In this document: piece by piece, positions 27,659 through 29,093 of the stretch
Position numbering within the stretch: position 1 is the first letter of the stretch
How the letters are laid out: every line of letters starts with the position of its first letter
Assembly (NCBI GenBank): GCA_029782145.1
Contig: JAKOVH010000016.1
Coordinates: 310,001-374,000, forward strand
DNA: 64,000 bases
Source: Actinomycetes bacterium
GTDB lineage: Bacteria > Actinomycetota > Acidimicrobiia > Acidimicrobiales > Acidimicrobilacustridaceae
Reading direction: 5' to 3'
Made by a program: the position numbers and the translations under genes
The notes under the pieces: generated by a model
Database searches by the model: none
Told to the model about the DNA's origin: nothing
What the model saw: the letters and a program-made list of their open reading frames with translations, nothing else

Positions 27659-28018
27659 TCAGGCGGAGGCGGCCGCCGGCGACGACGTGCTCGACGAGGA
27701 GGTGCTCGACGAGGACGTGCTCGACGACGAGGTGTCGCTCGATCCCGAGCCGGAGGACCCGGCGCTCGAGGCGGAGCCGGACTCGGAGCCGGTGGAGCCC
27801 GAGCCGGTGTCGGCGCTGCTCGTCGAGCTCGAGCCCGACGAGCCGCGGCTGTCGTTCTTGTAGAAGCCGCTGCCCTTGAACGAGATGCCGACCGAGCCGA
27901 ACCTCTTCTTCAGCGCACCGCCGCAGGACGGGCACTCGGTGAGGGGGTCGTCGCTGAACGCCTGCTGGGCCTCGAGCTCGTGGCCACAGTCCTTGCAGCG
28001 GTACTCGTAGGTCGGCAT
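27659..28018 (-). CDS. FmdB family zinc-ribbon protein with Ser-rich tail
   Basis: A 119-residue protein. Residues 1-45 are an FmdB/CxxC_CxxC_SSSS zinc ribbon (Cys 8, 11, 29 and 32 in YRCKDCGHELE and CPSCGGALKKRF). From about residue 56 to the end it is almost only Ser, Thr, Gly, Ala and Asp, in repeats of SSSSTS, which is disordered. ATG 28018 is preceded by GGAGGACCTCC. The promoter region carries a CIRCE element, so expression is likely repressed by HrcA and raised on heat or protein-folding stress. Divergent from galU. Confidence 0.88.
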   Translation of the reverse strand: MPTYEYRCKDCGHELEAQQAFSDDPLTECPSCGGALKKRFGSVGISFKGSGFYKNDSRGSSGSSSTSSADTGSGSTGSESGSASSAGSSGSGSSDTSSSSTSSSSTSSSSTSSPAAASA

Positions 28019-28053
28019 GGAGGTCCTCCGGAGCCCGGCCCGTGGCCCGGGCG

Positions 28054-28084
28054 TTAGCACTCGAACGTCGCGAGTGCCAGCATA
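28054..28084 (-). promoter_or_regulatory. CIRCE (HrcA operator) overlapping fmdB promoter
   Basis: TTAGCACTC (28054-28062), nine spacer bases, then GAGTGCCAG (28072-28080). The CIRCE consensus is TTAGCACTC-N9-GAGTGCTAA, so only two of 18 arm bases differ. A minus-strand -10 TATGCT (28084-28079) abuts it, which places the transcription start inside CIRCE. That is where HrcA normally blocks groESL/hrcA promoters. Confidence 0.85.
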
Positions 28085-28208: not shown

Positions 28209-29093
28209 ATGCCCGGTTCGAAGGTCACCAAGGCCGTCATCCCCGCTGCGGGCCTGGGCACCCGGTTCCTCCCGGCCACCAAGGCCCAGCCCAAGGAGAT
28301 GCTGCCGGTCGTCGACAAGCCGGCCATCCAGTACGTCGTCGAGGAGGCGGTGCGGGCCGGGATCGACGACATCCTCATCATCACCGGTCGCGGCAAGCGA
28401 TCGCTCGAGGACCACTTCGACCGCAACTTCGAGCTCGAGTACTACCTGGCGGAGCGCAACAAGCAGGACCAGCTCGACGACGTCCGTCACCTCGCCGAGC
28501 TGGCCGACATCCACTACGTCCGCCAGGGCGAGCCGCTCGGGCTGGGCCACGCCGTGTCCGTCGCCCGCAAGCACGTCGGCGACAACCCCTTCGTGGTCAT
28601 GCTCGGCGACGACATCATGGACCACCGCTCGTCGGTGCTCACCGACATGATCCAGGCCTACGAGCACTACGGCCGGTCGGTCATCGCCCTGTCGGAGTTC
28701 CCGCCCGAGGAGATCTCCTCCTACGGCTGCGTCGACCCCGAGGTGGTGAGCGACGAGCTGGTCCAGGTGCGGGGCATCGTCGAGAAGCCCAGGCCGGAGC
28801 AGGCCCCGTCGAACCTCGCCGTCATGGGGCGCTACGTCTTCACCCCCGAGATCTTCGAGGCCCTCGAGCACGTCCAGCCCGGCGTGGGCGGCGAGATCCA
28901 GCTCACCGACGCCATCGCCCGGCTGCTGCAGTCCCAGAGCGTGTACGGCTGGGTGTTCAGCAGCGGCCGCTACGACATCGGCAAGAAGCTCGACTACCTG
29001 CGGGCCACCGTCGAGATGGCCATCGACCGCGACGACCTCGGGCCGGAGTTCCGCGCCTTCCTCGTCGGGCTCGTCGACAAGCGCCTGCGGTGA
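28209..29093 (+). CDS. galU: UTP-glucose-1-phosphate uridylyltransferase
   Basis: A 294-residue nucleotidyltransferase that makes UDP-glucose. The signature AGLGTRFLPATKAQPKEMLPVVDKP is at the N-terminus, with VMLGDDIM (metal-binding Asp) and SSGRYDIGKKLDYL near the end. Product feeds envelope polysaccharide and, with galT at the window end, galactose metabolism. ATG 28209 follows AGGAGG. The stop overlaps the moeA/glp start (GTGA), an arrangement common in actinobacteria. Confidence 0.95.
   Translation: MPGSKVTKAVIPAAGLGTRFLPATKAQPKEMLPVVDKPAIQYVVEEAVRAGIDDILIITGRGKRSLEDHFDRNFELEYYLAERNKQDQLDDVRHLAELADIHYVRQGEPLGLGHAVSVARKHVGDNPFVVMLGDDIMDHRSSVLTDMIQAYEHYGRSVIALSEFPPEEISSYGCVDPEVVSDELVQVRGIVEKPRPEQAPSNLAVMGRYVFTPEIFEALEHVQPGVGGEIQLTDAIARLLQSQSVYGWVFSSGRYDIGKKLDYLRATVEMAIDRDDLGPEFRAFLVGLVDKRLR

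Follow-up and report, generated by a model that had tools for sequence, protein, structure and literature searches.

Why does a CIRCE palindrome, the operator through which HrcA controls groE and dnaK, lie in front of a gene for a small zinc-ribbon protein? We addressed this question at a single locus within a 64,000-nucleotide stretch of DNA (hereafter the window). A preliminary description had predicted a heat-shock or proteostasis gene of unknown function, and had proposed searching the genome for hrcA and for other CIRCE sites, as well as inspecting the regions upstream of orthologous genes. The features that matter here are:

28054–28080, minus strand: CIRCE/HrcA operator, CTGGCACTC-N9-GAGTGCTAA on the gene's strand (pattern search and conservation).
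28079–28084, minus strand: −10 hexamer TATGCT, the last two bases of which are the operator's first two (read from the sequence).
28019–28029, minus strand: purine-rich leader GGAGGACCTCC directly before the ATG, a likely ribosome-binding site.
27659–28018, minus strand: ruc/FmdB-type zinc-ribbon gene, 119 aa, with a Cys4 ribbon and a Ser-rich tail (Pfam Zn_ribbon_8).
28209–29093, plus strand: divergent galU-type nucleotidyltransferase gene (Pfam NTP_transferase and synteny), judged unlikely to be the operator's target.

The sequence at 28054–28080, TTAGCACTCGAACGTCGCGAGTGCCAG, matches the CIRCE consensus TTAGCACTC-N9-GAGTGCTAA at 16 of the 18 arm bases (two mismatches), reproducing the initial claim. 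The span first assigned to the site, 28054–28084, has to be divided: the arms stop at 28080, and the remainder takes in the −10. The site does sit on the predicted promoter of the zinc-ribbon gene, as had been proposed, since on the minus strand the bases TATG preceding the operator start CTGGCACTC complete the TATGCT hexamer; from the operator to the downstream ATG is 35 bp. A pattern search of the 64 kb at up to three mismatches returned this CIRCE site and no other, while a match at the same threshold appeared in 1 of 100 shuffled windows. A dinucleotide model puts the expected number of sites with up to two mismatches at 4e-5 in 64 kb and 0.0025 in a 4.2-Mb genome.

The genome encodes one hrcA (E=2e-46), in line with dnaJ. 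Genome-wide, the CIRCE search (up to three mismatches) identified four sites at three loci – groES-groEL (two in tandem), a second groEL (groEL2) and the window gene – and the reversed-pattern control gave 0 matches. Direct targets of HrcA repression in Mycobacterium tuberculosis are ruc (Rv0991c) and three Hsp60/Hsp10 genes (Becker et al. 2020, PMC7448276); independent work places rv0991c-rv0990c, groEL2, groES-groEL1 and also hrcA-dnaJ2 itself under HrcA (PMC8557902). The CIRCE gene set of the genome under study is essentially this published regulon (groES, groEL1, groEL2 and ruc), and in both cases ruc carries an HrcA-type operator at its promoter. While the sequence of the operator and its position over the promoter are those of the familiar CIRCE/HrcA control of groE and dnaK, the target here is a gene for a small zinc-ribbon protein; all of the genome's other CIRCE sites are at groE genes, with none detected at a dnaK operon at up to three mismatches in the whole-genome search. 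The tandem groES-groEL sites (C23:45992-46042) overlap by 3 bases, one being perfect and the other having three mismatches.

The neighbours of the window gene are galU, moeA, moaA and a gene for a SAF-domain protein; galU and moeA1 are neighbours of Rv0991c in M. tuberculosis too. The product (MPTYEYRCKDCGHEL...SPAAASA, 119 aa) is the small FmdB-type zinc-ribbon protein with a Ser-rich tail that had been described: it matches Zn_ribbon_8 (E=1e-17), and its 64-residue tail contains 35 Ser, 9 Gly and 7 Thr, and is, judged by this composition, of a hydrophilic, disordered type. The cysteines C8, C11, C29 and C32 form a CxxC-N17-CxxC arrangement, and the N17 spacer is present in 164 of 164 distinct homologues examined, matching the published layout of Ruc (PMC7448276). 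The Ruc mutant C29S/C32S is altered at residues 29 and 32, as given by the primer name in the strain table (PMC7448276), and Cys29 and Cys32 of the window protein bear the same residue numbers as this pair; the long tail of the disordered type is a further likeness. Given the cysteine positions, the N17 spacer, the divergent galU and the match between the HrcA regulons, we therefore conclude that 27659–28018 is orthologous to M. tuberculosis ruc. Unlike in M. tuberculosis, where ruc forms an operon with hsp22.5, no such operon was seen at the window locus, and the next minus-strand gene encodes the SAF-domain protein. Contig C2 of the genome encodes a second protein with this Pfam zinc ribbon; it does not have the Ser tail, and a search for CIRCE across its 3.1-kb locus found none. 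The corresponding 79-aa frame (C2:297276-297392, L185) ends in GGGCCGGMCGC and lies beside a frame resembling an SDR-type dehydrogenase.

We consider it very probable that the window gene is a ruc orthologue which is repressed by HrcA via CIRCE and released upon heat together with the groE genes, and that its product is an oxidation-activated chaperone. The operator, its overlap with the −10, hrcA, the make-up of the regulon, the conservation of the operator and the features of the protein are observed directly; repression, heat induction and chaperone activity are proposed by analogy with M. tuberculosis, in which Ruc is induced at 45 °C and is abundant in the hrcA mutant, binds zinc and, once oxidised, acts as a chaperone aiding DnaKJE (PMC7448276). 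HrcA dimers would bind 28054–28080, a site overlapping both the −10 and the predicted start of transcription, and, if the M. tuberculosis precedent holds, would keep ruc from being transcribed as long as the temperature is normal. HrcA would be inactivated or removed by heat or misfolded protein, upon which ruc, groES-groEL and groEL2 would be expressed together. The four cysteines of the protein probably bind zinc, and oxidation may expose the Ser-rich disordered region, which would then hold unfolded proteins for DnaK/DnaJ. The four zinc-binding cysteines and the predicted activation by oxidation are reminiscent of Hsp33, although the two sequences are unrelated; Hsp33 was searched for in the genome and not found, which fits the published anticorrelation between Hsp33 and Ruc.

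The prediction of a heat-shock or proteostasis gene agrees, by analogy, with what has been published for the orthologue Rv0991c/Ruc (PMC7448276), and it withstood both of the refutations proposed with it, hrcA being present in the genome and the repeat being conserved upstream of orthologous genes. Calling the function unknown and the regulation a feature of this lineage, however, overstated the novelty: both the function and the control by HrcA are already known in M. tuberculosis. For the mycobacterial orthologue, regulation and protein function are both on record; our contribution is a further lineage, the extent of operator conservation and a difference in the promoter. A search of the literature for an earlier paper tying 'FmdB' to HrcA by name found none.

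HrcA could control the gene and the product could still be something other than a chaperone like Ruc, for example a zinc-ribbon adaptor or a regulator of amide metabolism of the FmdB type. Homologues are indeed annotated as FmdB, and we found just one family member that has been tested biochemically. However, the co-regulation with groE, the cysteine geometry and Ser-rich tail, both conserved, and the neighbourhood associations of ruc with chaperone genes that have been published for many phyla (PMC7448276) all argue for a Ruc-like chaperone, and the galU, moeA, moaA and SAF-domain neighbours are not suggestive of amide metabolism; we therefore regard a product unlike Ruc as improbable.

Still less probable is that the operator controls the divergent galU, either instead of the zinc-ribbon gene or in addition to it. 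The operator does lie within a 190-bp intergenic region common to both genes, and a divergent galU is found close by in 67 operator loci. It is nevertheless mostly located 10–60 bp from the zinc-ribbon start, even at the loci where galU is 650–790 bp off (L010, L101, L124, L147, L172 and L173), and it remains beside the zinc-ribbon start at loci where no galU was found; furthermore, the fused −10 reads towards the zinc-ribbon gene. Since the operator stays beside ruc where another gene separates it from galU, galU is an unlikely target.

The 79 homologue loci in named genomes come mainly from Acidimicrobiales and their relatives, and partly from Frankia; at 63 of them the operator (up to four mismatches) is present within 200 bp upstream, as against 0 matches at the 549,397 positions scanned in the same loci outside these upstream regions. 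In the window's own family, three of the sampled members have the gene, and each of them has the operator too. While the palindrome has two consensus mismatches and is the one site upstream of the gene, a chance match or generic hairpin with no HrcA role has a negligible probability, already refuted, in our view, by strong conservation at the operator position alone, in addition to the 0.0025 sites expected per genome and the empty reversed-pattern control. In a sample of 87 homologues, one per genome, drawn evenly across the phylum but from the better-scoring homologues and hence not random, 39 have the operator (up to five mismatches), the mismatch counts splitting cleanly into four or fewer versus six or more. 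A strict operator-plus-ATGCCNACNTA pattern was matched in 8 of 296 phylum genomes, distant families included (control matches: 0); this count is low because genes that start with GTG and operators whose inner arms are imperfect escape the pattern, and it was reading the upstream regions that gave the real rate. hrcA is present in 265 of the 296 genomes. The operator occurs in 0 of 5 hrcA-negative and 39 of 82 hrcA-positive genomes of the sample (p=0.06), a co-occurrence that, with hrcA-negatives numbering only five, is no more than suggestive. As the other 43 of the 82 have hrcA and the homologue without the operator, several families have either lost the HrcA–ruc link or never acquired it.

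The promoter beneath the operator is not the same throughout. A TANNNT hexamer overlaps the operator's first bases, at either of two adjacent phases, in 67 of the 98 operator loci, and occurs at other scanned offsets in two loci at most; many rows in both samples are related, and these locus counts do not represent independent events. An overlapping GGAAT-N18-GTT element (SigH/SigR type) was sought upstream of the window gene and not found. Families f31 and f36 have loci where this element, in place of the TANNNT arrangement, overlaps the operator; judging by gene order, f31 is probably Streptomyces-like and f36 Mycobacterium-like, probably Mycobacteriaceae, and the divergent galU at ~700–800 bp in the f36 operator loci is a likeness to M. 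tuberculosis ruc. A SigH/SigR-type layout of this kind, with the SigH and HrcA sites overlapping, has been reported for M. tuberculosis, and independent work places Rv0991c in the SigH regulon (PMC4803200). While M. tuberculosis ruc thus has an overlapping SigH site as well, the window gene has an operator-fused TANNNT −10 without a SigH-like element, and in this order the promoter on which HrcA acts is therefore probably of the housekeeping type only. Across a set of individual loci (L014–L026, L032, L077, L081 and L171–L173), most have the operator overlapping GGAAT-N18-GTT, as opposed to TANNNT in Acidimicrobiales.

It is an evenly balanced proposition that HrcA control of ruc is old and widely kept in Actinomycetota, while the promoter beneath the operator has been exchanged between lineages: a fused housekeeping −10 in Acidimicrobiales and relatives, and an overlapping SigH/SigR-type thiol-stress promoter in other families. 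If so, Ruc would be a core groE-regulon chaperone that is wired to oxidative stress in some lineages only. With the operator found here, the HrcA–ruc link reaches beyond mycobacteria to a distant order that is largely uncultured and, judging by operator conservation, to much of the phylum, a breadth that supports Ruc as a regular companion of GroE and not a quirk of M. tuberculosis. 'FmdB family zinc ribbon' annotations in these genomes could be renamed as likely Ruc chaperones. Among the records collected, five are titled Bifidobacterium breve or Acidobacteria (L088, L091, L093, L085 and L136); these metagenome-assembled genomes are probably mislabelled, since their ruc genes are 74–86% identical to the window protein, as in Acidimicrobiales.
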